Of a DNA stretch of 39,042 nt, positions 5,232-20,615 are shown piece by piece. The notes beneath the pieces are model-generated. The model was not told where the DNA came from. It searched no databases and was given only the letters and a program-made list of their open reading frames with translations. Within the stretch, counting starts at the first letter, position 1. The number at the start of each line of letters is the position of its first letter. Origin of the DNA: a virus; IMG/VR virus record IMGVR_UViG_3300031227_012963, positions 1-39,042 of that record; one strand, 5' to 3'. The position numbers and the translations under genes were made by a program.

Positions 5232-5852
5232 TTAGTCGTCTTCAAATAAATCTTCATCATCCTCATCTTCATTGTTCACTTTCTCTTCTTCATCTTCCTC
5301 AATCTCTTCCTCAATCTCTTCCTCATCTTCCTCAATTTTTTCAGCATCTTCAGCATCTTCATCCAGGTCAGAATCAGGATCTCCCAATTTGATATTCTTG
5401 ATTTTATCAGATACTAAATTACCAAGTTTGACAAGATTTACAGTATAAAGTCCATGTCGTTTTATAATTTCACCAAATTCTTCAACATCATGTGGTAAAA
5501 TTTTTATTTTGGTATCTCCAGTTTTTTCATCCTCTTCAACCCAGCAATGGGAAAGTTCATGATCAATCACAGCAATTCTAATAGACTCATCTAAATTTTT
5601 CCATTTTGGATATGCTACAGTAATAATAAAATCATATCCAGATAATACTTTATTTTTTGTAGAAATCTTTTCAGCAGTTGCAACTACTTCACGTCCTTTC
5701 ATTTTTATATCTTTATTTTTAAAAAGGTATGCAATTTTACAACTTACAAGATGTTTATGATATTGTCCAATTAATGGTTTTGCATACTTTTCTACTTCTG
5801 GTGCAGGATCATAACTAATTGGTATCCTCTTTACTTGCGTTCCTTTTGCCAT
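5232..5852 (-). CDS. Putative phage metallopeptidase with acidic tail
   Basis: This encodes 206 residues from ATG 5852, with GAAAGGA upstream. A TTG one codon earlier is possible but less likely. The zinc-protease signature HELSH occurs at about residues 98-102, preceded by the hydrophobic IRIAVID, and an Asp/Glu-rich segment follows (LPHDVEEFGEII) that could supply the third ligand. The size and pattern fit the family annotated as putative phage metallopeptidase. The last 45 residues are a Glu/Asp run that is probably disordered. It is the first gene of the leftward operon, next to the divergent control region. The substrate is unknown. Confidence 0.8.
   Translation of the reverse strand: MAKGTQVKRIPISYDPAPEVEKYAKPLIGQYHKHLVSCKIAYLFKNKDIKMKGREVVATAEKISTKNKVLSGYDFIITVAYPKWKNLDESIRIAVIDHELSHCWVEEDEKTGDTKIKILPHDVEEFGEIIKRHGLYTVNLVKLGNLVSDKIKNIKLGDPDSDLDEDAEDAEKIEEDEEEIEEEIEEDEEEKVNNEDEDDEDLFEDD
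5236..5370 (-). repeat. Low-complexity GAA/GAT tract (acidic tail of metallopeptidase)
   Basis: The coding strand is an imperfect GAA/GAG/GAT repeat encoding EEIEEEIEEDEEE-type sequence at the C-terminus of the metallopeptidase. It is a third-strand purine-rich tract like the other acidic tails in the window. Confidence 0.8.
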
Positions 5853-6008
5853 CAATTAAATCCTTTCAATGAAGTTTTGATGCTCACCAGATAATACTCC
5901 AAGTGTTTATAAAAAGTTTATTAATAATTTAGAAGGTGGTGGGGATTAGGACACCCGCTACCACCTGCGTTAGCAGGTAACTGTATTTAATATATCATTG
6001 TTAAGATC

Positions 6009-6122: not shown

Positions 6123-6144
6123 CCCTTACCCTTAAGGGTAAGGG
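6123..6144. repeat. Perfect 22-bp palindrome
   Basis: The two arms CCCTTACCCTT and AAGGGTAAGGG abut with no spacer. It lies 54 bp upstream of the TATAAT hexamer and 99 bp upstream of the first rightward gene. A dimeric repressor or activator site is the simplest reading. A T-run follows at about 6150-6156, but no rightward gene lies upstream for it to terminate. Confidence 0.85.
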
Positions 6145-9120: not shown

Positions 9121-9742
9121 TACGACGCGTATGGACTACACACTCCGAATAAGTAAGGAGTACGTTGTTGGATTGGTGAATTCGTTATTGTTTTCAAATA
9201 CTATCTTATGGGATGGAACAAACCAATTTAATGAACTTCCAATTTTTAGTAGCGACATTACTGAAGATGATAGACGAGAACAACGTGGTGCATTTTTTGT
9301 AGACAATCATTATGGTCGTGTACTTCGATTATTGGCTACCTTAGAAGAAGAAAACCTTCGAGGGAATAGTACATGTCGTGTGTGCTATAGATTGTCTAGC
9401 ATCCAAGAAAAAATGCGTATTGGATCTGCAAACCGTATATACTATCCTTTTACAATTCCTCTTGATTTTTCTGTATCAGATTTACGGTTAGGTGTGCGCA
9501 CTCCCTTTTTATCTTTTTCAGATAATACAGAGAAGGATAATGAAGTCAACTTATCTAAATTAATGGCGCTTATTGGGCATCTCGTTGCTAGTAAATTTAT
9601 TGTTGTAGACGATGAAAATCTCTTTTCTGATCTTCTTACAAGTCAACTGAGTACGCCTCCTATGGCTTCTGATCCACATTTCAACTTAATTTATGGGGTT
9701 GCACCCCCTGGTGATCAGGAGTGTTTAAGCGATGACTATTAA
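9113..9742 (+). CDS. Hypothetical protein
   Basis: This encodes 209 residues from ATG 9113, supported by GGAG about 8 bp upstream. ATG 9131 is an alternative. The protein is mixed alpha/beta with no signal peptide or membrane span. It includes DITEDDRREQRGAFFVDN and CRVCYRLSS, where the single CxxC is too little to call a zinc site. It is not recognised. It overlaps the RuvC-like gene by 11 bp, so it is probably co-expressed with it. Confidence 0.65.
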   Translation: MRSTTRMDYTLRISKEYVVGLVNSLLFSNTILWDGTNQFNELPIFSSDITEDDRREQRGAFFVDNHYGRVLRLLATLEEENLRGNSTCRVCYRLSSIQEKMRIGSANRIYYPFTIPLDFSVSDLRLGVRTPFLSFSDNTEKDNEVNLSKLMALIGHLVASKFIVVDDENLFSDLLTSQLSTPPMASDPHFNLIYGVAPPGDQECLSDDY

Positions 9743-10301
9743 GGGTATGACATACGTAGGCATAGACCCGAGTTTAACAGGCACAGGGATTTGTGTATTT
9801 AATAGCGGTAGCGGTAACGATGATGAAATGCCTGTGTGTACAATTAAAACAGAAAAGAAAAACTTTGAGAATTCATTACAACGTTATTTATACATTGTAA
9901 ACACTGCGATTGCGTTTATTAAATCTGCTGCTATTTTTCCTCCCACTATTTTTATCGAGGGCTATTCATTTGGTTCTCGCGGTGCTGCAGTTTTTTCTTT
10001 AGCTGAATTTGGTGGACTTCTACGTTATAAAATTGCAAAAAGATTTAATGAGTACTATGAGATTCCACCTACAGTTCTTAAAAAATTTATTACAGGGAAA
10101 GGTAACTCCAATAAGAATGTTATGCTTGAGCAGACGTTTAGAAAATATGGAATAGGATCAGAAATACTTACGGATGATAATCAGGTTGATGCATTCAGCA
10201 TAGCACAGTTTGCTAAAACGATGCGTGAGGGGGCATTACCAAAAATTTTTATTGGTAAATATTCAAAAACAATTTGGAATGATGCGTCGTGCATGGAGTA
10301 G
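9732..10301 (+). CDS. RuvC-like Holliday junction resolvase
   Basis: The likely role is cutting branched DNA made during recombination-dependent replication, before packaging. The 189 residues have an RNase H-like fold pattern: YVGIDPSLTGTG with the first catalytic Asp, TIFIEGYSFGSRGAA with the catalytic Glu, and DDNQVDAFSIAQF with the final Asp pair. The spacing and the SFGSR...LAEFGG motif fit phage RuvC-type crossover-junction endonucleases. It is somewhat longer than cellular RuvC (about 173). It lies between unknown genes and the glycan block, away from the main replication set, and its 3' end overlaps the next gene. Confidence 0.85.
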   Translation: MTIKGMTYVGIDPSLTGTGICVFNSGSGNDDEMPVCTIKTEKKNFENSLQRYLYIVNTAIAFIKSAAIFPPTIFIEGYSFGSRGAAVFSLAEFGGLLRYKIAKRFNEYYEIPPTVLKKFITGKGNSNKNVMLEQTFRKYGIGSEILTDDNQVDAFSIAQFAKTMREGALPKIFIGKYSKTIWNDASCME

Positions 10302-10919: not shown

Positions 10920-11900
10920 ATGCGTGTTCTATTCTTTTGTCCGCATACGCGGATTTCAGGCGGTGTAAAAGTAACATTCACAGTTGCAAACCATTTGGCT
11001 AAATGTGGTGTAGATGTTAATTTAGCTAGCTTAAAGAATTTTGAAAGACCTAATGACTGGTTTATTGATAAAATCCATTTTAATATAATTGATGGTAAGA
11101 GAATACCTTTAGGTGCGCTAAGTACTTATGATGCCTGCGTTACCTTTTGTGACGGTCCCAGTTTATCTGGGGCATCGTGTAAAAAAATATTATATCTGCA
11201 GGGGTTTGCTGGAACTAAAGTAGAAAAACAACGTATTTCTGAAAAATATGATCTTGTTGTAGCTACATCTAAATGGTTGGTAAAACTGGCTAAACAACAT
11301 AATGAAAATGTTATACTTATACCTCCCGGTATTGATAGCATTTTTGCTAGAAAAGAAGCGCCACTGTGCTCCAGATACCAAGCGATAGGGACGATACACC
11401 ACGCATCAAAAGATAAATGTTTTGATAATTTTACAGACATTATTACGCGATATTTTGTAAAGCGTAGAAAACCAGTGCACTGTGTTATTGTAACCGCACA
11501 ACCTTTAGCTAGTGTCCCAGCATTAGATAAGTACATGATTCCGTACTCTATTTACTATAAACCACCTCAAAGGTTATTACCATATATTTATTCCATGTGC
11601 AACGTGTGGGTATCTACGTCAATCAATGAGGGATTTGGACTGCCTCCGCTAGAGGCTATGGCATGTGGTTGTCCTGTAGTTATGTGTAAAAATCGTGGAT
11701 TAGATAAGATTGTACAGCATAAAGCAAATGCATTAGTATACACGGGAAATACCGATGCTGCTGAATATATTAATACATTACTTTATTTCAAACAATGTGT
11801 AAAGAAGTTAAGAAAAGTTGGGTATAATACAGCTAGTAAATTTTTATGGAAAGATTCATTAGACGCATTTTTTTATAATTTACACAAGGTGTGTACATGA
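10920..11900 (+). CDS. Glycosyltransferase, GT4 family
   Basis: This encodes 326 residues. The N-terminus MRVLFFCPHTRISGGVK is the glycine-rich acceptor-domain start of GT4 enzymes. LILIPPGIDS-like sequence follows (VILIPPGIDSIF). The donor domain has STSINEGFGLPPLEAMACG, including the E-x(7)-E motif that binds the nucleotide sugar. AGGAAG precedes the ATG. It ends in an ATGA overlap with the next GT4 gene, so the two are a translationally coupled pair. Confidence 0.88.
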   Translation: MRVLFFCPHTRISGGVKVTFTVANHLAKCGVDVNLASLKNFERPNDWFIDKIHFNIIDGKRIPLGALSTYDACVTFCDGPSLSGASCKKILYLQGFAGTKVEKQRISEKYDLVVATSKWLVKLAKQHNENVILIPPGIDSIFARKEAPLCSRYQAIGTIHHASKDKCFDNFTDIITRYFVKRRKPVHCVIVTAQPLASVPALDKYMIPYSIYYKPPQRLLPYIYSMCNVWVSTSINEGFGLPPLEAMACGCPVVMCKNRGLDKIVQHKANALVYTGNTDAAEYINTLLYFKQCVKKLRKVGYNTASKFLWKDSLDAFFYNLHKVCT

Positions 11901-12835
11901 CATATCTTTTTATCGAGCCTGGGTTACACATCTGTGGAGGCATACGGCGTATCGTAGAAATTGCCACAAGACTGCGTAATTTAGGGCATATCGTGTATGT
12001 AGCGTCCCCTAAAGGACGTGCGTGTACATGGTTAGACTCTAACTTCATCCCTATAAAATTAGCTAATATAAAAGAATTCAGTAAAAAACATAAAATAGAT
12101 ATCTGTATATTTAATTTAGCAGATCAATATACTGAAGCAAAAGCTGTTACTGCGGCAATTAAGATCTTTTGGGTACTCGCTCCTGAAGCGATGTATAAGA
12201 ACCCGGAAATACCTATTAAAGCATTAAATTGTGGCTTTAATCTATTATCCAATTCTTCATTTACAGTATCCTATATTAAAAAATATGCAAGAAATTATAA
12301 AGATAATATTACTATTATTCCAGGTGGCATAAATAAAACACATTTTAAATATGATTCTATTATTCCAAAAATTTATCATGTAATGTATTATGGATCTTCA
12401 CGCCCATGGAAAGGTGCACAAATTATTGAACGCGCACTAACTCCTTTACAATTGAGGCTCCATAAAATGAACACAGGAAATATGCTACAAACGCAGATGT
12501 ATAAATTGTACGCGTCAGCCACGTGCTATGTATCTGCGGGCCAGATTGAAGGATTTAATTTCCCAATACTTGAAGCTATGGCGTGTGGTTGCCCTGTTGT
12601 TTGTACGTCAGACGGTGGGAGTGCGGATTTTGTGAAAGATGGAATAAATGCAATTGTTGTAAATCGTACTGTGGAAGGGATTTCTAAGGGTGTTCGGAGA
12701 ATACTTGGTGATAAAGATTTGCGTAGAAAACTAAAACAAGGTGGATTAGAAACTGCATCAGCTAAGAAGTATAATTGGGATGTAGTAACTAAGCAATTCA
12801 GCGATTATGCAGAGAACCTTTTATATAGAGAATAA
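11897..12835 (+). CDS. Glycosyltransferase, GT4 family (second of pair)
   Basis: This encodes 312 residues from ATG 11897, within an ATGA overlap. A GTG two codons earlier is less likely. Hallmarks are GLHICGGIRRIVEIA at the N-terminus, IIPGGINKTHF in the linker, and the donor site AGQIEGFNFPILEAMACG. It is clearly similar to its upstream neighbour, most obviously in the LEAMACGCPVV segment, so the pair may have arisen by duplication. A 38-bp A/T-rich gap follows before the next gene. Confidence 0.87.
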   Translation: MTYLFIEPGLHICGGIRRIVEIATRLRNLGHIVYVASPKGRACTWLDSNFIPIKLANIKEFSKKHKIDICIFNLADQYTEAKAVTAAIKIFWVLAPEAMYKNPEIPIKALNCGFNLLSNSSFTVSYIKKYARNYKDNITIIPGGINKTHFKYDSIIPKIYHVMYYGSSRPWKGAQIIERALTPLQLRLHKMNTGNMLQTQMYKLYASATCYVSAGQIEGFNFPILEAMACGCPVVCTSDGGSADFVKDGINAIVVNRTVEGISKGVRRILGDKDLRRKLKQGGLETASAKKYNWDVVTKQFSDYAENLLYRE

Positions 12836-12873: not shown

Positions 12874-13617
12874 TTGTTAGATCTAACTGTTATAATAGCT
12901 TGTAAAAATAGGAAAGAAAATCTCGATTATTGCTTGAGGTCTATCTCTGGTGGATCTATACTTCCAAAGGTGTACATTGTGGATTTTGGAAATAAAACAC
13001 CAATAAAGACACCGTATAAGTGGGTAAAGGTTATCAGAGTTACCAATAACACTGAGAAGTTTCATAAGGCGCGGGCTGTAAATATTGGTTTAAAACAGGT
13101 GAAAACGAAATATGCATGTGTTACAGACGCAGATCAAATTTTTAGCAAAAACTTTTTTAGTACAGTAGTGAGGGCACTGGAGGAAAACTCTAAAAGGTTT
13201 ATAATGTGCAAAACATATGCTTTGCAAGGTATCCCTAAGACAGTACAACCAGAAAGTGTTTTTGAAAAATACGGGGTACTTTTAAAGTTGGCAAAGAAAA
13301 CTAGGGATGCCTATGGTGACGGGTGCTGCCATGCAACGCTAGCGTCTTGGTTTAGGAGGACGGGTGGGTATGAAGAATCTTTTTTGGGGTGGGGGTATGA
13401 AGATAGTGATATGGCTTGGAGAGCGCGAAAGCTTGGTTTGACTTTATATAGTATAAACAGACATGTCTCTATGATTCATTTGCCACATCCGATAGAAACA
13501 CAAGTCGGGGGATATAGGCACAAGCATGTTGAGAGGACTAATAAGGTACGCTATGCAAAGAGAAGACAAAGGGGCATTTTAGTTGGAAATGTGGGTAGAA
13601 AGTGGGGGATACTTTGA
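12874..13617 (+). CDS. Glycosyltransferase family 2, galactosyltransferase-like end
   Basis: This encodes 247 residues from a TTG start with AGAGGT 8 nt upstream. The N-terminus LTVIIACKNRKENLDYCLRS is the GT2 nucleotide-binding strand. DADQIF serves as the DxD site. The C-terminal GWGYEDSDMAWRARKLGL is the acceptor/catalytic motif seen in galactosyltransferase and polypeptide-GalNAc-transferase-like enzymes (GWGxEDxD). From here to about 18.46 kb, Arg is often AGG, unlike flanking genes. A shortened paralogue lies at 18465. Confidence 0.87.
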   Translation: MLDLTVIIACKNRKENLDYCLRSISGGSILPKVYIVDFGNKTPIKTPYKWVKVIRVTNNTEKFHKARAVNIGLKQVKTKYACVTDADQIFSKNFFSTVVRALEENSKRFIMCKTYALQGIPKTVQPESVFEKYGVLLKLAKKTRDAYGDGCCHATLASWFRRTGGYEESFLGWGYEDSDMAWRARKLGLTLYSINRHVSMIHLPHPIETQVGGYRHKHVERTNKVRYAKRRQRGILVGNVGRKWGIL

Positions 13618-13913
13618 AAATATTTGTTGATATAGATGGAACTATTTGTCGTACAAAGGATGCAAATTATTCGGAAGCGGTACCCATCCATGCAAGTATA
13701 CAAAAGATAAATAAGCTTTATGACTTAGGGCACGAAATTATTTTTTGGACTGCTCGTGGGTCTGCAAACAAAGAAGAGTCTACTGAAATCCTAAATATAA
13801 CTAACAAGCAGCTACAGGAGTGGGGTTGCAGGTATACACAATTATCAGTGGGTGAAAAGCCCGTGTATGACCTACTGATATGTGATAAATCTGTCAGGAT
13901 CGATGAGTTATGA
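13614..13913 (+). CDS. HAD-superfamily phosphatase, small
   Basis: This encodes 99 residues from TTG 13614, which overlaps the previous TGA (TTGA) and has GGGGGA upstream. GTG 13602 is an alternative. The catalytic motif I is FVDIDGTIC (DxDGT). Motif II is FWTARGS. A Lys lies in VGEKPVYDLLICDKS, and the Asp of ICDKS fits motif IV. The cap domain is absent (C0 type). Lying directly before the DUF115-like, NeuA and NeuB genes, it could be the phosphatase for a nonulosonate-9-phosphate, but other sugar phosphates are possible. Confidence 0.8.
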   Translation: MKIFVDIDGTICRTKDANYSEAVPIHASIQKINKLYDLGHEIIFWTARGSANKEESTEILNITNKQLQEWGCRYTQLSVGEKPVYDLLICDKSVRIDEL

Positions 13914-14566
13914 AATCTGTAGCTAAATTGGCTGGTAGGCATAAGAATAAGGACATCTACGTTATAGGTGCGGGACCTTCTTGTAATTTTCTTAGTAGAT
14001 CTTTTTTCAATGGCAAAATAGTAGTTGGTGTTAATCAGACATATAAGAAGTTTCCATGTAACTATGTAGTTCGCAAAGAGCATAGCGATGTGGTGAAAAC
14101 TCTAAAGATGGCTCCAAAGTCTTTTGTTATTGTTTCAAAACTGAATTATGGATCTGCGAAGTCTAAGATAGCTGGTATAACCCATAATAATTTGCATATT
14201 TTTAATCATCTACTAAATAAGGGAGCTATAAATACAGCTTCATTTGGAAAGCCTGGGTTTTTAGTAGTGAGTAACTCTACCATTACATCAGCTATCCATT
14301 TTGCATACGTCTTAGGAGCAGCTAACATTATTTTAGTTGGTGCCGACCACGGGACACTAGATGACAAATTTGTGTATGATGGCTATTATGAAGATATAAA
14401 GCAAACACCTTGGAAGAATTGGGAACAATATGTAGGATGGTTAAAAATTCTCAGTAAGGATACCGAGAGTATCAGCGCTAAAATACGTGAAAAGGGTGTT
14501 AATGTTGTTAGCTTAAACCCATTTATAAACTTTGGGTTAGAAGGGCACATATACAAGTATGGGTAA
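13910..14566 (+). CDS. DUF115/GT42-like putative glycan transferase
   Basis: This encodes 218 residues. The N-terminus has YVIGAGPSCNF, the G-x-GPS motif shared by DUF115 (MptE/Maf-like) and GT42 sialyltransferase-type folds. Later, NSTITSAIHFAYVLGAANII is followed by LVGADHGTLDD, matching the conserved helix-strand-Asp segment of these families. It has no signal or membrane span. Maf and GT42 proteins transfer nonulosonic acids from CMP donors, and the next two genes make such a donor, so a CMP-nonulosonate transferase is a reasoned but unproven assignment. A 6-hydroxymethylpterin-pyrophosphokinase-type role is less likely in this context. It is joined to its neighbours by ATGA and 8-bp overlaps. 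Confidence 0.65.
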   Translation: MKSVAKLAGRHKNKDIYVIGAGPSCNFLSRSFFNGKIVVGVNQTYKKFPCNYVVRKEHSDVVKTLKMAPKSFVIVSKLNYGSAKSKIAGITHNNLHIFNHLLNKGAINTASFGKPGFLVVSNSTITSAIHFAYVLGAANIILVGADHGTLDDKFVYDGYYEDIKQTPWKNWEQYVGWLKILSKDTESISAKIREKGVNVVSLNPFINFGLEGHIYKYG

Positions 14567-15194
14567 TTATACTATAGTCGTGCCAGCGCGTAGCGGTTCA
14601 AAGGGTGTACCCCATAAGAACAGGATGCTCATTCAGAGTACTCTTAACATAGTTTCGGAGTCTATGCGTACGCACACTATAATTACCACTGATGACGAGG
14701 TTATCATTGAAGCATATCAAGGTAATCATATAGTTCATAGGCGAAGCATTGCGACTAGTTCTGATACAGCCTCTATGAAGTCTGTGATGTTAGAGGTGGT
14801 TAACGCCGGACTTTTGGGAGCAGAAAATATTATCGTATTATATCCAACGTATCCTACAAGGACATGGGAAGATGTTTTGGATGCCATTAATTTTTTTGAA
14901 CGATCTGCTGCGAAATCATTACTATGTAGGATACCGTATATTGGTCAAAGCCCTTACCTTTTAATGCATCCTGTTGGAGAGTATTGTGGGAGACAGGTTA
15001 TAGATCACGACTTGTATAGAAGGCAGGATTATTTACCTGTGTTTGAGCTTTCTCATTGCGTTTGCATTTTTTCTGCGTCTATTCTTCATGAGTTAAATCA
15101 AAATTTGTACAACAGAGATACTGTGTTTATGGACATGTGCAAGAAAGTGGACGTAGACACAGAACAGGATATAAGCACATGGAAACAAAACTGA
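14559..15194 (+). CDS. neuA: CMP-nonulosonate cytidylyltransferase (NeuA-like)
   Basis: The family activates sialic-type acids with CTP to CMP-sugar. The 211-residue protein has the signature ARSGSKGVPHKN near the N-terminus, TTDDEVIIEA, then TSSDTASMKSVMLEVV (the Asp region of the substrate pocket), and ends with KKVDVDTEQDI, which matches the conserved DIDTxxD end of NeuA. It is slightly short for a bacterial NeuA (about 225-230 residues) and has no acetylesterase domain. The loop after the first motif lacks the usual GKPLI, reading LIQSTLNIV instead. It overlaps NeuB by 16 bp. Which nonulosonic acid is used cannot be told. Confidence 0.85.
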   Translation: MGNYTIVVPARSGSKGVPHKNRMLIQSTLNIVSESMRTHTIITTDDEVIIEAYQGNHIVHRRSIATSSDTASMKSVMLEVVNAGLLGAENIIVLYPTYPTRTWEDVLDAINFFERSAAKSLLCRIPYIGQSPYLLMHPVGEYCGRQVIDHDLYRRQDYLPVFELSHCVCIFSASILHELNQNLYNRDTVFMDMCKKVDVDTEQDISTWKQN

Positions 15195-16033
15195 TAGGTG
15201 AAATAGGTATAAACTATGCTTTTGGTGATGACAAGCAGAATTTTGTCGGTAATGCAAAAAAGTTAATTTTTATAGCGTCAATAGCTGGGTGGGGGTACGT
15301 GAAACTCCAAACGAGGACACCAGATGTTTGTGTACCAGAAAGTGAGAAAGGGTTGCCAAAGCAAGTACCCTGGTCTTCACAGCCAACAACTTATTTGGGG
15401 TATAAAAAAGATGTGGAATTTTCTAAGGATGCCTATGTAGAGCTTCGTGAATATGCTGCATCATTAGGTTTAACTCTTTTTTCATCTGTTTGGGATATTC
15501 AGGCAGTTGATTTTCTTCGTGATATTTCTGCTAATAAGATTTTGAAGATTCCTTCGGCTCTATTAACTAACACCTCTTTACTAAGGTATGCTAGGAAAAA
15601 CTGTGAGCTACTCATACTCTCTACTGGAATGAGTACGGAGGATGAGATTGAGATAGCTGTAAGGGAGGGGGAGCCCGATGTGTTGATGCACACAGTGTCT
15701 GCATACCCAGCTATCGTTGAAGACCTGAATTTGCAGTACATAACGTGGTTAAAACAGAAGTATGGACATAAATGTTGTATTGGGTATTCAGGGCACGAGT
15801 TTGGGCTAACTATGTCTATTGTCGCTGCGGTACTAGGCGCTGAATGGGTAGAGCGCCATATTACATTAGATAGAACCCTTTGGGGGTCAGACCAGTTAGC
15901 TAGTGTGGAACCGGTCGGTATGATAAAGCTAAAAAAGTCGTTGGATGATGTGCAAAAGGCTTTTGTTAATTTTCCCGGTCCACGGAAGGTACATCTTTCA
16001 GAAATGGAAAAAGTAAAATCTCTACGTGGGTAA
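15179..16033 (+). CDS. neuB: Nonulosonic acid synthase (NeuB-like), SAF-less
   Basis: The family condenses PEP with an amino- or keto-hexose to form a sialic-type acid. ATG 15179 gives 284 residues. An extension to 15137 would lie inside neuA and is rejected. TIM-barrel landmarks are GEIGINYAFGD, YVKLQTRTPDV, KIPSALLTNTSLL, LILSTGMSTEDEIE, LMHTVSAYPA, then IGYSGHEFGL and VERHITLDRTLWGSDQ ahead of ASVEP. Bacterial NeuB is about 340 residues with a C-terminal antifreeze-like SAF domain. Here the protein ends just after the SLRG segment, so that domain is missing. In dimeric NeuB the SAF domain covers the partner's active site, so activity may differ. Confidence 0.87.
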   Translation: METKLIGEIGINYAFGDDKQNFVGNAKKLIFIASIAGWGYVKLQTRTPDVCVPESEKGLPKQVPWSSQPTTYLGYKKDVEFSKDAYVELREYAASLGLTLFSSVWDIQAVDFLRDISANKILKIPSALLTNTSLLRYARKNCELLILSTGMSTEDEIEIAVREGEPDVLMHTVSAYPAIVEDLNLQYITWLKQKYGHKCCIGYSGHEFGLTMSIVAAVLGAEWVERHITLDRTLWGSDQLASVEPVGMIKLKKSLDDVQKAFVNFPGPRKVHLSEMEKVKSLRG

Positions 16034-16036
16034 CTA

Positions 16037-17101
16037 ATGAGAATACTGCACATATATGCAACTGTCAATAATTCTGGCGATCAGATGATCGGGTATGCAA
16101 CACGCCTCATGTTTGAGAGGTACGTTAAAGTAACGGGTTGGGTTAGTGAGAATATTAGAAAGGTTTTTAACTATGATGATGTAAAGAAAATTAATACGTT
16201 TGATGCCGTGGTAGTTGGCCCAGGAGGAATTTTTTTGTATGACGAGACAAATTCAAAGGCTGGCACAAGGGAGATATCTGGATACCAATGGTTGATTTCT
16301 GAGGCACTCCTTAGTAAGATAAAAGTTCCAGTACTGGTTGTAGCTGCTGGTTGGAACCAGTTTCGTGGTAGGGCTGCTTTGTACCCGACCACTCTGAAAG
16401 GGATATCTGACTTAATTTCTAAGTCTAGCTATTTTTCTGTTCGACATACCGGTGATGCCCATAGTTTAGAAAATTTTCTTCATTTGCATGAAGGTAGTGT
16501 TAAAGTATTTATGTGCCCAACCTTGTTGCTTGGCACGTCTCATAAGGCAGAAGTGCAAAGAAAGCGAATTTTAGCCATTCAGATTGCGGGGGATAGACCT
16601 AAACTTCGTTATACCGTTGGAATAAAAAGAACTTATGAAATTCTTTCAGAGTACATATCGGTAATGTCGAAGGACTTCCCGGAGATACATATAGTTGACC
16701 AGTGTTGTGATACAGGATTTTTTAAATTTATAAAGGAACGAAGAAAAGATGTGAAATTTGTTTCATTGGTAAACAAGTCACTAGACCAGCAGCTAACGTA
16801 TTATAAAGAAATAGGGGTGATGTTGGCCACTAGAGGGCATGCCCAAATGATCCCAATAGGATGCGCTACCCCAACTGTTTCTCTAATAACGCACAATAAA
16901 GTAGCGTATTTCTTGGATGACCTAAAAAGGCTAGCTCCTGCTTCACGAATTTCTGAGACGGGGGTAGATATTACGCGGGTAAGGTCAGGTGATCTGGTGC
17001 AGGCGACACGTATAGCACGTTCGCTGGACTACACTTTGGTGAACAGTGCTATAGAGAAATCTATTATAGCTTCTTTCCAAGAAATGTTGAGTATTTTATG
17101 A
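16037..17101 (+). CDS. Polysaccharide pyruvyl transferase-like protein
   Basis: This encodes 354 residues starting MRILHIYATVNNSGDQMIGYA, the N-x-GD motif of the CsaB/WcaK-type pyruvyl transferase family. AVVVGPGGIFLYDE follows, then VPVLVVAAGWNQF, SYFSVRHTGDAHSL and a C-terminal LATRGHAQMIPIGCATP, which corresponds to the family's R-x-H active-site segment. These enzymes add ketal-pyruvate from PEP to sugars of surface polysaccharides. It fits a glycan-decorating role and uses the same PEP pool as NeuB. Confidence is good for the family and lower for the precise reaction. Confidence 0.82.
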   Translation: MRILHIYATVNNSGDQMIGYATRLMFERYVKVTGWVSENIRKVFNYDDVKKINTFDAVVVGPGGIFLYDETNSKAGTREISGYQWLISEALLSKIKVPVLVVAAGWNQFRGRAALYPTTLKGISDLISKSSYFSVRHTGDAHSLENFLHLHEGSVKVFMCPTLLLGTSHKAEVQRKRILAIQIAGDRPKLRYTVGIKRTYEILSEYISVMSKDFPEIHIVDQCCDTGFFKFIKERRKDVKFVSLVNKSLDQQLTYYKEIGVMLATRGHAQMIPIGCATPTVSLITHNKVAYFLDDLKRLAPASRISETGVDITRVRSGDLVQATRIARSLDYTLVNSAIEKSIIASFQEMLSIL

Positions 17102-17736
17102 CTTGTCCTGTTTGTCAATCCCCAGATGTTATTCATAAGGTGGCTACTAGTTCCTTTTTTAATTTAGATATAGATCAGTGTAACTTCTGTGGTCTTAGTT
17201 GGGTTAACAGGGGCGATGATCAGGTTAGCGAGGTGGAAGAACAAAAAAAGTTTGACCACATTTTTGGTACAAACAGGAAAAGAAACGAGTATTATTTAGA
17301 GAAATTATGTGCTTTTTCTGACGTGAAAACTGTTTTGAAAGTTGGCTCACCAAAAGATTTTTCGTTTTTGCTAGAGATTGGGAGAAGGTATCCATTTATT
17401 CACCTTTTTTCTTATGATTTATTACATAAGGATACACCAAAAAATGTGGAACCAATCAGCGACATCACAGAGTACTACTCTATAATTTTTTGTATCCACA
17501 CGTTAGAGCATATTTTGCCTACTGATACCCAGGCTGTAGTAGCTAAAATGGTTAATCATTGTGATTATTTATTCTTGGAAGTACCTAACTGCCATTCAAT
17601 TGATCGTTTATGTGAGAGTAGCAAGCACCCGCACAACGTGTTCTTTACTAAGAAGTCGCTGACTAACTTATTAGGAACTGACTCTATTTGCAGAACTACA
17701 AATCATGTAATTCAGATTGAGAGAAAAAATGTATAA
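17098..17736 (+). CDS. Zinc-finger SAM methyltransferase-like protein
   Basis: This encodes 212 residues, linked by ATGA overlap to the previous gene. The N-terminal zinc site has C3, C6, C29 and C32 (TCPVCQS, then QCNFCGLSW), as in sugar methyltransferases with a zinc-binding head. The Rossmann part shows VLKVGSPKDFSFLLEIG in place of the usual glycine-rich motif I, so SAM binding looks weakened. IIFCIHTLEHILP matches the post-motif region, and FLEVPNCHS the later strand. It could methylate a sugar of the glycan, or be a degenerate relative. Confidence 0.72.
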   Translation: MTCPVCQSPDVIHKVATSSFFNLDIDQCNFCGLSWVNRGDDQVSEVEEQKKFDHIFGTNRKRNEYYLEKLCAFSDVKTVLKVGSPKDFSFLLEIGRRYPFIHLFSYDLLHKDTPKNVEPISDITEYYSIIFCIHTLEHILPTDTQAVVAKMVNHCDYLFLEVPNCHSIDRLCESSKHPHNVFFTKKSLTNLLGTDSICRTTNHVIQIERKNV

Positions 17737-18463
17737 CGTAGATGTAGTGATTATTAGCTGGGCAAAGACCAAAGAGCTATACGACATTACGTGGAATGGA
17801 CTTTCTTCTTTATTTGGATGTAAGCCAACCATGGCGTATCATGCTTATGTTGTTGAGTCAAACCCAGATGTTACGTATGACCAGTTTAATTCTGATGTGC
17901 ATACATGTACAACTATCCACCCCACTACAGAATTTGGGTATAACAAATATTTAAATATTGGTAGAAGGTTAGGAAAGTCAGAGTACGTGGTTCTTTGTAA
18001 TAATGACTTGACTTATGATTGCGGGTGGGCTGCTAATATTATAAGAGAGATGAACAAAGATGCAGACCTTTTATCTGCTTCTCCTTGGTGTCCTCAGATA
18101 CATAGAGACAGGCATAAGAAGGGAAATGTGGGGAATTGTGTTTATGGGTATAGTATAATTACTAAGGTTACTGGATGGTGCATTTTTCAGAAGAGGAAGA
18201 TATATGATTTACTTGGTGATTTAGATGAGCGTTTTGTATTTTGGTATAGTGACAATGATTATTGTATGACTATTCGAGAGAAGGGTATTAAACATGCTTT
18301 AGTTATTAACTCTTGGGTGGAACATCATGGAAAACGTGTTGGCAAAACTGCGGATAATGTATTATCAAAAGAAAAACTAAGAACATATACATCATTGCAA
18401 AAGAAAATATTTTTGAATAAATGGAAAAATATAAATAATATACTAGTAAGCCCTAAGGATTAA
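17729..18463 (+). CDS. Glycosyltransferase family 2
   Basis: This encodes 244 residues from ATG 17729, inside the end of the previous gene (8-bp overlap). A TTG at 17717 is less likely. GT2 features are VDVVIISWAKTKELYD at the N-terminus, YVVLCNNDLTYDCGW (the donor/metal site), VTGWCIFQKRKIYDLLGDLD, and FVFWYSDNDYCMTIREKGI with the catalytic acidic pair. The protein resembles the soluble GT2 enzymes at 10289 and 19809. The AGG-rich coding style fades out in its second half. Confidence 0.83.
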   Translation: MYNVDVVIISWAKTKELYDITWNGLSSLFGCKPTMAYHAYVVESNPDVTYDQFNSDVHTCTTIHPTTEFGYNKYLNIGRRLGKSEYVVLCNNDLTYDCGWAANIIREMNKDADLLSASPWCPQIHRDRHKKGNVGNCVYGYSIITKVTGWCIFQKRKIYDLLGDLDERFVFWYSDNDYCMTIREKGIKHALVINSWVEHHGKRVGKTADNVLSKEKLRTYTSLQKKIFLNKWKNINNILVSPKD

Positions 18464-18464
18464 C

Positions 18465-18998
18465 ATGAGTAAACTAACTGTAATATTAGCTCATAAAAAT
18501 AGACAACATAATTTAGAGTTTTGCTTAGAATCTATTAATTCATCAAATAAAATACCTCGTGTTATATTGGTTGATTTCGGAAGTACCATACAACCAAGAT
18601 ATACATATCCATGGTTACAAATTATTCATGTAACACATAATACCGATTTTTTTCAAAAAGCACGAGCTTTAAATATTGGAATTAGGCAGACAAAAACTGT
18701 TAATTTGTGTACTACTGATGTTGATCAGATATTCAATAAAAATTTTTTTAGTGTAGTTGATAATACACTTACTACGCGTAAAAGTGTGTATGTAATGTGT
18801 CGTACGTACGTATTGCGTGAATTGCCTTCAACTATTTCCCCCAAAAACATAATGATAAATTTTGATAAACTTTTAATAGAAGCAAAAAAAATAAGAAAAA
18901 TACCATTTGGTGATGGATGTTGTCATGGGATGCCTACATATGTTGCGCATGCATTAGGAGGGTATGATGAAAGTAGCAGATTATTCGCAAAAACATGA
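18465..18998 (+). CDS. Truncated glycosyltransferase family 2 (paralogue of 12874)
   Basis: This encodes 177 residues and aligns with the 247-residue gene at 12874 almost from end to end of its first 165 residues: LTVILAHKNRQHNLEFCLES, ARALNIGIRQTK, DVDQIFNKNFFSVV, then GDGCCHGMP and ALGGYDES. It then ends with RLFAKT, where the paralogue has the GWGYEDSD catalytic segment. No GWGxEDxD remnant is readable in the 119 bp after the stop. Thus the acceptor/catalytic C-terminal third is missing. It may be a decayed gene or a retained donor-binding fragment. Codon use (CGT/AGA for Arg) matches the rest of the phage, unlike its paralogue. Confidence 0.75.
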   Translation: MSKLTVILAHKNRQHNLEFCLESINSSNKIPRVILVDFGSTIQPRYTYPWLQIIHVTHNTDFFQKARALNIGIRQTKTVNLCTTDVDQIFNKNFFSVVDNTLTTRKSVYVMCRTYVLRELPSTISPKNIMINFDKLLIEAKKIRKIPFGDGCCHGMPTYVAHALGGYDESSRLFAKT

Positions 18999-19117: not shown

Positions 19118-19831
19118 GTGAATGATGTTATTTCAGTATTAGTTCTTACATATAATAGACGTAATATTGTCTCTATGTGTCTCCCATACATCGCAGAACA
19201 TTTAGAAAAATCAAATTCTGAGATATTAATCTGGGATAATGGATCAACTGATGGAACATTAGATTGGATTTTTCAGTTCGCACATTCAAATACAAAAAAT
19301 AAAATCAATGTATTTTTTTCTGAAAAAAATTATGGAGTTGAAGCTATTAATTTTTTAGTAGACAAAACTGTAGGAGAATATATCATAAAAGTGGACAGTG
19401 ATATAATTCCGCCCGTTCAGTATGATACGCGTATGTTAACCGCTTATATAGCATGTGCAAAGGAAAACATTGCTTACTTATCTTGGGATATTCCTTGGGG
19501 GCACACATCTTTTGCCAAACGTTCTGGTATGAAATTGTATAAAGGTGATCGAGGAACTATTGTGTCTGTTACCCCTAATACACGCGTACTCTGTAATTAT
19601 GCTCCAAGCAAATGGATGGTGAATGGTGCGTGCAGATTTTCAGAAAAAGATGTATTTACTAAACTGGGTAGTCATCCACAAGGTAAGCGGTATGGAGTAG
19701 ACACGTATGTGAGTGCTCAGGCCGAGAAAGCTGGTTATACATGTGGATTCATAGACACCCACGATAAGGCACAGCACATCACACAAATGGATATTATGGA
19801 GAAAATCTATGGCAAAACATCAACCACTTAG
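19118..19831 (+). CDS. Glycosyltransferase family 2
   Basis: This encodes 237 residues from GTG 19118, with AGGAG upstream. The N-terminus ISVLVLTYNRRNIVSMCL and ILIWDNGSTDGTLDWI are classical GT2 strand-loop motifs. EYIIKVDSDIIPP carries the DxD metal site. The middle contains WMVNGACRFSEKDVFTKLG, and the end GVDTYVSAQAEKAGY replaces the usual ED acceptor motif. It overlaps the following GT2 gene by 23 bp, so the two are probably translated together. Confidence 0.86.
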   Translation: MNDVISVLVLTYNRRNIVSMCLPYIAEHLEKSNSEILIWDNGSTDGTLDWIFQFAHSNTKNKINVFFSEKNYGVEAINFLVDKTVGEYIIKVDSDIIPPVQYDTRMLTAYIACAKENIAYLSWDIPWGHTSFAKRSGMKLYKGDRGTIVSVTPNTRVLCNYAPSKWMVNGACRFSEKDVFTKLGSHPQGKRYGVDTYVSAQAEKAGYTCGFIDTHDKAQHITQMDIMEKIYGKTSTT

Positions 19832-20615
19832 TATTATTATTCCTGTCGTTAATCAACCTGAAATGACTGTGCGGTGTTTTCAGTCAATACGTGCAAATAC
19901 AAAAATGCCGTATGAGATAATTTGGGTTGATAATAATTCAGATCCTGAAAGCTTTGGAATAATTAGAAGACAAGCTACGCGTCCTAGAGTTAATTGTAAA
20001 TTGATACGAAATGAATACAATGTTGGTTTTATCAAAGCAATAAACCAAGGTATTGCAGAAGCTAAAGGTGAATACATAATTTTGTTAAACAATGATACAG
20101 AGGTAACGTGGCGATGGGCTACAAAATTAATAAAACCACTTATTAATGATAAAAAGGTTGGAGCGGTAGGCCCCGTCACACAAAGTAAAATTGCCTGGCA
20201 AGAAGCAATGAGTCTTAATGCTCGTTGGGATTTAGGCCTACCCAAGTACACAAAAGCACAAAAAAATAGATATGGTAAAGTACTCGATGAACTATTCAAA
20301 GACAGATATATTGATGTAGAACGCCTACCTCTGTCTTTTTTCTGTGCTGCTTTTCGGAGAAGTACGTTCACAGAGCTTGGCGGTCTTTGTGAGGAGTTTT
20401 CTATCGGCTTAGGTGATGATGACGAGTATGGGATGCGTATGCGCGCAAATGGCTTTAAATCGCTTCTCAGCCTGGGTACCTTCGTGTATCACGCACATCG
20501 AACAACGTTCAATGCTCTGCAATTGGGTGTGGATTCTTTGCGGAGGTACAACATGAAAATTTTGCGAAGAAAAGAAAAAGAATTAAAGGCTGCTGAAAAA
20601 AAGAAGGCGATATAG
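19809..20615 (+). CDS. Glycosyltransferase family 2
   Basis: This encodes 268 residues with GGAG before the ATG. Motifs are LSIIIPVVNQPEMTVRCFQS, IIWVDNNSDPES, NVGFIKAINQGIAEAKGEY, ILLNNDTEVTWRWATKL (metal site), VGAVGPVTQ, FFCAAFRRSTFTELGGL and IGLGDDDEYGMRMRANGF (catalytic DDD region). This is the typical rhamnosyl/glycosyltransferase layout of large-phage and O-antigen GT2 enzymes. The C-terminus is Lys/Glu-rich and probably disordered. It closes the glycan block, and replication genes follow 12 bp later. Confidence 0.88.
   Translation: MAKHQPLSIIIPVVNQPEMTVRCFQSIRANTKMPYEIIWVDNNSDPESFGIIRRQATRPRVNCKLIRNEYNVGFIKAINQGIAEAKGEYIILLNNDTEVTWRWATKLIKPLINDKKVGAVGPVTQSKIAWQEAMSLNARWDLGLPKYTKAQKNRYGKVLDELFKDRYIDVERLPLSFFCAAFRRSTFTELGGLCEEFSIGLGDDDEYGMRMRANGFKSLLSLGTFVYHAHRTTFNALQLGVDSLRRYNMKILRRKEKELKAAEKKKAI

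Follow-up and report, generated by a model that had tools for sequence, protein, structure and literature searches.

The virus record IMGVR_UViG_3300031227_012963 was analysed as a stretch of 39,042 bases, referred to below as the window, and carries at positions 12874–18463 a gene module that probably encodes a compact phage pathway for CMP-activated nonulosonic acid (NulO), of the type that uses phosphorylated substrates. Sugars of this sialic acid type are familiar from the surfaces of animals and bacteria. The module comprises eight genes on a single strand, each overlapping or abutting the next, in agreement with a preliminary description of this DNA. The families of the NeuB, NeuA, pyruvyltransferase and GT2 genes were assigned firmly, and the assignments of the DUF115, HAD and methyltransferase genes were sub-threshold. 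The genes are as follows.

12874–13617, + strand: GT2 family glycosyltransferase with a TTG start (Pfam Glycos_transf_2 3.1e-14, Glyco_transf_7C 2.9e-9)
13602–13913, + strand: small HAD phosphatase of 103 amino acids, predicted NulO-9-phosphate phosphatase (TIGR01689, PHROG_1238 and PDB 9iqw matches)
13910–14566, + strand: DUF115/GT42-fold protein, predicted CMP-nonulosonate transferase (sub-threshold MptE-like match, fold model, synteny)
14559–15194, + strand: NeuA-type CMP-nonulosonate cytidylyltransferase of 211 amino acids (CTP_transf_3 above cut-off, motifs, PDB matches)
15179–16033, + strand, reading frame open from GTG 15137: NeuB-type nonulosonate (9-phosphate) synthase of 284 amino acids, without a SAF domain (Pfam NeuB, structures)
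16037–17101, + strand: polysaccharide pyruvyltransferase-like protein (PS_pyruv_trans, PF04230, 3.3e-14; 53.9 bits against a cut-off of 25.3)
17098–17736, + strand: weak S-adenosylmethionine methyltransferase-like protein (Methyltransf_23 2.9e-4; 21 bits, below the cut-off of 27)
17717–18463, + strand: glycosyltransferase of a phage family (PHROG_22332 1e-20)

In the proposed pathway, NeuB would use phosphoenolpyruvate and a 6-phosphorylated hexose of the host, most likely mannose 6-phosphate (Man-6-P), to form a nonulosonate 9-phosphate, most likely Kdn-9-phosphate (Kdn-9-P). The small HAD protein would remove the phosphate, NeuA would activate the free NulO with CTP to CMP-NulO, and the DUF115/GT42-fold protein would transfer the NulO from CMP-NulO to a glycan or protein. 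The surrounding glycosyltransferases, the pyruvyltransferase and the possible methyltransferase may build or modify the glycan that carries the NulO.

The NeuB protein matched the Pfam NeuB family (PF03102) at 2.9e-56, with 191 bits against a cut-off of 22, which places it in the NeuB superfamily. ATG 15179 was chosen as its start because the alignments of its relatives begin at METKLIGEIG. The sequence matched PDB entry 6ncs (9.5e-27), and the AlphaFold model (confidence score pLDDT 92) matched the NeuB structures 6ncs (6.7e-22) and 1xuu (9.8e-21) in a Foldseek search. All 12 catalytic positions are retained, namely E8, K42, Q44, K123, S126, S148, Y176, S204, H206, E225, H227 and D238, matching E25, K53, Q55, K129, S132, S154, Y186, S213, H215, E234, H236 and D247 of the Neisseria meningitidis NeuB (NmNeuB). 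These positions are invariant in all 64 non-redundant viral relatives, whose loci form the set for the viral locus counts given below. Asn184 of NmNeuB is replaced by Ser in 63 of the 64.

The window NeuB ends at residue 284, where the SAF (antifreeze-like) domain would start, a feature on which the preliminary description had not remarked. No SAF domain was found in any of the 80 relatives fetched from viral contigs, or in any full-length relative, viral or bacterial, that the NeuB query retrieved; SAF-bearing NeuB paralogues are present in some genomes that also have SAF-less relatives. The protein scored well below the models of canonical NeuB/NnaB (TIGR03569, 157 bits against 400) and PseI (TIGR03586, 128 against 340), and it lacks their SAF domain. 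NmNeuB and Campylobacter jejuni PseI share its catalytic residues and fold, but they lie outside its clade, bear a SAF domain, use non-phosphorylated N-acetylated substrates and have Phe112, where all 64 viral NeuBs have Trp. In NmNeuB the SAF domain supplies Arg314, the residue that holds N-acetylmannosamine in place by its N-acetyl group (ManNAc; PMC6795526). The closest PDB structure, the Leptospira NeuB 6NCS, likewise ends before the SAF domain; however, it groups with SAF-bearing NeuBs on a long branch of the tree, and its SAF loss therefore looks independent.

A maximum likelihood tree of 52 NeuB sequences was built, in which the Kdn-type references were defined by gene neighbourhood, as synthases beside a Kdn-9-P phosphatase. 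The window NeuB was placed among the NulO synthases and within a phage or phage-dominated clade, supported at 98/98 and 100/99 in the trees. A branch with 100/98 support unites this clade with the SAF-less bacterial NeuBs, with SAF-bearing NeuBs that adjoin phosphatases scoring above the NCBIfam Kdn-9-phosphatase cut-off, and with a SAF-less group beside NeuA-phosphatase fusions, while NmNeuB, PseI, SpsE and the Leptospira 6ncs protein lie on its opposite side. The window NeuB therefore groups with the Kdn-9-P/NANS-type synthases. In the Bacteroidota, a KdsC/Kdn-9-phosphatase-like HAD adjoins the SAF-less NeuB in 23 of 29 loci. Three HAD arrangements thus accompany this branch (a separate KdsC type, a fused form and the small phage HAD), which fits the requirement of a 9-phosphate product. 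One Bacteroidota locus (L258, 2052–4072), in which a SAF-less NeuB adjoins a fused NeuA-Kdn-9-phosphatase protein, is a clean candidate Kdn operon.

The NeuB family was found in 40 of 41 Streptomyces genomes, nearly always in single copy, and the SAF-less type is apparently the sole or main one, as read from the Streptomyces loci fetched as NeuB relatives. These proteins belong to the same clade, with 42–45% identity to our query (A1), and lie beside NeuA; unlike in the phage module, no small HAD was seen nearby, and they adjoin a gene judged by eye only to be putatively polysialyltransferase-like. Streptomyces walls carry a Kdn teichulosonic acid (PMC11481543), and Kdn synthesis requires only Man-6-P (PMC6200933). 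The Streptomyces SAF-less NeuB is a candidate synthase for the Kdn of this polymer. The placement of the window NeuB suggests that its precursor is likely a 6-phosphorylated hexose, either Man-6-P or N-acetylmannosamine 6-phosphate (ManNAc-6-P). Kdn would be the most likely product, favoured because this NeuB type occurs in Streptomyces with Kdn walls, Man-6-P suffices for Kdn, and the window holds no N-acyl machinery. The preliminary description had noted the absence of NeuC-like and N-acyltransferase genes and assigned the precursor to the host. Both genes are indeed absent from the window, yet on a phosphorylated-hexose route this is expected and is not a gap. Its proposal of a NeuA/NeuB pair within a CMP-nonulosonate module likewise stands as the best reading, except that this NeuB is not of the classical ManNAc type. 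A ManNAc-using NeuB with a missing NeuC is disfavoured by the tree, by the lack of a SAF domain and by the pairing with a HAD.

The known Kdn pathway of Bacteroides thetaiotaomicron and Prymnesium parvum, with its Kdn-9-P synthase, Kdn-9-P phosphatase and CMP-Kdn synthetase (PMC6200933), offers the nearest comparison. Both it and the phage module combine a NeuB-type synthase, a HAD phosphatase and a CMP-NulO synthetase, and the window NeuB lies on the 100/98 branch of the BT1713-adjacent synthases. They differ in that those synthases keep the SAF domain, that the phage HAD belongs to a different, smaller family, and that the phage activity is a predicted one.

The small HAD protein matched TIGR01689 (EcbF/BcbF) at 9.8e-8, below the cut-off, PHROG_1238 at 5.6e-23 and the capsule biosynthesis protein of PDB entry 9iqw at 1.5e-8. 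Its HAD catalytic residues D10, D12, T50, K86 and D95 are retained in 70–71 of 71 viral copies, and it is probably the NulO-9-phosphate phosphatase. The adjacent NeuA protein carries a CTP_transf_3 domain (2.9e-5, above cut-off) together with the PARxGSKG..KN and DVDT motifs, the latter of the DxD type, which mark it as a CMP-nonulosonate cytidylyltransferase (NeuA/PseF). PDB matches were obtained to the CMP-Neu5Ac synthetases 6ifd (2e-9) and 1eyr (5e-8). The best curated model was PseF (4.3e-8, although at 33 bits against an equivalog cut-off of 206), and weak KdsB matches were also seen.

The protein encoded at 13910–14566 scored 27.1 bits with MptE/DUF115, below the cut-off of 34.6. Its structural model (pLDDT 89.4, pTM 0.90) has the GT42/DUF115 fold: the top three Foldseek matches in the PDB were the GT42 sialyltransferase CstII twice (1ro7/1ro8) and Maf (5mu5), at E values of 3e-4 to 5e-4 and a Foldseek probability of 1.0. 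A phmmer search of the PDB gave no match, so that only the fold search was informative; a profile of the protein matched a Pasteurella sialyltransferase at E 0.006. Ten relatives were found in viral contigs, while a single-sequence scan of annotated phages gave none. In 10 of 13 occurrences the gene lies immediately 5' of NeuA, and as a rule the two overlap. Judged by this fold and synteny, the protein is probably the CMP-nonulosonate transferase.

The preliminary description had called for searches of phage and bacterial genomes. Besides the bacterial relatives, NeuB relatives were present in only 2 of 50,697 annotated phage records, and a scan of viral contigs with a NeuB alignment, the source of most loci, gave at least 535 matches; a single-sequence NeuA scan of the same kind of contigs gave none. 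Among the 64 loci, the small HAD was present in 53, NeuA in 47 and both in 38. One or more sialyltransferase-like genes, from Pfam GT29, the window DUF115 family or a third family so named by eye, were present in 39. The count of 39 depends in part on an unverified label, since the viral genes of that third family (cluster 7), called GT42-like by eye, lack profile support. None of 2000 shuffles of gene order brought HAD and NeuA as near to NeuB as they are in the loci, a result that is to be read as support and not as a probability because related loci are not independent. Many of the NeuB loci abut tail and baseplate genes. The module thus recurs widely in uncultured phages and is not a one-off, and the HAD and DUF115 proteins are recurrent partners of phage NeuB and NeuA, not bystanders.

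Individual loci add further detail. The one GT29 member tested, at 9445–10113 of a phage locus (L045), matched the Pfam GT29 sialyltransferase family at 1.5e-29, and in the huge phage LR756508 (L004, 11247–16068) NeuB is surrounded by four genes that were classed as GT29-like from clustering and motif. Another phage locus (L002, 10037–12860) holds NeuB and HAD followed by an aldolase of the DHDPS/neuraminate-lyase family (PF00701 5.5e-21) and NeuA. A phage-type NeuB and HAD were also seen on a Flavobacteriales contig (L087/L196) of a bacterial metagenome-assembled genome; this contig is probably a piece of a virus that was sorted into the bacterial bin.

Transfer of the NulO would most likely take place in the cytoplasm. 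The acceptors would be either proteins of the phage, whose virion would thereby be decorated, or host precursors destined for export by the host. The module proteins showed no convincing membrane span, and a crude hydropathy count was made of the proteins encoded up to 8 kb from NeuB: none in the 64 viral loci reached six hydrophobic segments, whereas 31 bacterial loci yielded 14 proteins that did. This lack of a flippase- or polymerase-like membrane protein argues against export or polymerisation by the phage and favours transfer in the cytoplasm. The virion is perhaps the first choice of target; the main rival is that the infecting phage modifies the host envelope (lipopolysaccharide, LPS, or capsule), for instance to keep out further phages. 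The envelope reading, which leaves the pathway unchanged, has a real though less than even chance. A review of jumbo phages describes cyanophage glycan clusters with a proposed role of this kind (PMC7824862), and a GtrB-like glycosyltransferase is present in the window; the missing flippase or polymerase speaks against it. Enzymes of the DUF115/Maf type act on proteins in the cytoplasm, which also counts against an envelope target. The most specific reading, a widespread phage-adapted CMP-Kdn system in which a SAF-less Kdn-9-P synthase, a phage-specific HAD, NeuA and GT29/GT42/DUF115 transferases sialylate virion proteins in the infected cell, is offered tentatively, as one we consider possible and less likely than the pathway itself.

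An N-acylated product would leave the pathway logic intact while replacing Kdn by Neu5Ac-9-P made from ManNAc-6-P, or by a legionaminic (Leg)- or pseudaminic (Pse)-like acid. We regard this as unlikely, though worth weighing. Animal NANS takes both ManNAc-6-P and Man-6-P, PseF is the best curated model for NeuA, and an Epimerase_2 gene, a WecB-like UDP-N-acetylglucosamine 2-epimerase, lies near NeuB in 12 of the 64 viral loci. Set against these points are the lack of NeuC and N-acyltransferase in the window, the lack of the domain whose Arg314 holds the N-acetyl group in NmNeuB, and the relatives that include the sole or main NeuB of Kdn-making Streptomyces. A KDO-8-P/DAHP-like synthase for another keto-deoxy sugar (C7 or C8), working with a KDO-type cytidylyltransferase, is very improbable: the SAF-less TIM barrel is as in KDO8P synthase, NeuA has its weak KdsB matches and a KdsC-type HAD adjoins bacterial NeuB relatives, but the Pfam NeuB match is strong, NeuB structures match best (E 7e-22 against 7e-10 for KDO8P synthase) and the tree unites the protein with NulO synthases. 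That the module is contaminating bacterial DNA, or a passenger recently taken from a host and without phage function, can hardly be credited. Cellular DNA can occur in IMG/VR and mobile regions often carry glycan genes; against this, TerL and replication genes flank the module, as tail and baseplate genes do in relatives, NeuB falls in the phage-dominated clade at 100/99, and DUF115-NeuA synteny is kept in 10 loci.

Several observations weigh against a phosphorylated-substrate pathway to CMP-Kdn. The BT1714-like neighbours retain the SAF domain, which shows that SAF loss does not define Kdn synthases; we therefore rejected SAF absence as proof of Kdn, given that the BT1713-adjacent NeuBs have the domain. 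No enzyme of the exact NeuB clade with a tested substrate was found in the accessible literature, and the WecB-like epimerase in 12 loci could reflect ManNAc use in some phages. The phage HAD gave no match to the Kdn-9-phosphatase model NF058599 at 0.01, and its family is represented in 381 phage records, most of them T4-like and lacking this NeuB, so that its role may be that of a sugar phosphatase of general use. The CstII and Maf/DUF115 transferases share the fold of the 13910–14566 protein at about 15% identity, with modest TM structural similarity scores of 0.45–0.49, and no catalytic residue, including the catalytic His, is established. As the window is a fragment, export genes could also lie outside it.

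Phage-encoded glycan clusters are already known, and a phage nonulosonate pathway is apparently new within the open-access literature searched: no report of such a pathway or of a phage GT29 was found in open-access papers, subscription papers and preprints being outside the search. Like the cyanophage and jumbo-phage LPS-modification clusters, the module joins phage sugar synthesis to many glycosyltransferases; unlike them it concerns a nonulosonate, and the review (PMC7824862) makes no mention of NeuB, sialic acid or sialyltransferase. If the proposed pathway holds, a full gene set for making and transferring nonulosonates recurs in many uncultured phages, and viruses of bacteria would supply this chemistry themselves. 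Adsorption, the exclusion of superinfecting phages, the stability of the virion and its recognition by lectins would be affected. Under the CMP-Kdn virion reading, bacterial viruses would bear on their particles a sialic acid that they synthesise themselves. The module provides a concrete, testable enzyme set, with a SAF-less NeuB acting from hexose 6-phosphate, which bears on the role of the SAF domain, and it suggests that synthesis of the Kdn type is the likely function of the SAF-less NeuBs of Streptomyces, Chloroflexota and Bacteroidota.

The window consists of a leftward terminase unit and a rightward glycosyltransferase unit followed by DnaB, PolA, UvsX, SbcCD and RNR, genes that together with TerL mark the contig as viral. 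The nonulosonate genes lie between GT2 genes and upstream of this replication cassette, as previously described. Further glycosyltransferase genes lie on either side of the module.

10920–12835, + strand: two GT4-like glycosyltransferases upstream, part of the module's gene run (PHROG_2170 4e-13 and 9.5e-19)
19118–20615, + strand: two more glycosyltransferase genes downstream

Several GT4-type NCBIfam models matched 11891–12835, every one below its cut-off. The gene at 19118–19831 matched GT2 at 3.9e-14 and the GtrB-like PHROG_841 at 7e-8, and that at 19809–20615 was assigned to GT2 by eye only. A second GT2 sequence at 18465–18998, with 46% identity to 12874–13617, is cut off by a stop codon about 177 residues in, beyond which lies a stop-rich stretch, and it looks like a truncated duplicate. 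Consensus promoters were not more frequent than in shuffled sequences. A protein encoded at 5232–5855 on the − strand matched a PHROG annotated as transposase (2.3e-16). Its gene adjoins the intergenic region from which the TerL unit and the glycosyltransferase/replication unit diverge. This region contains at 6123–6144 a perfect 22-nt palindrome, CCCTTACCCTTAAGGGTAAGGG, a possible operator or bidirectional terminator.

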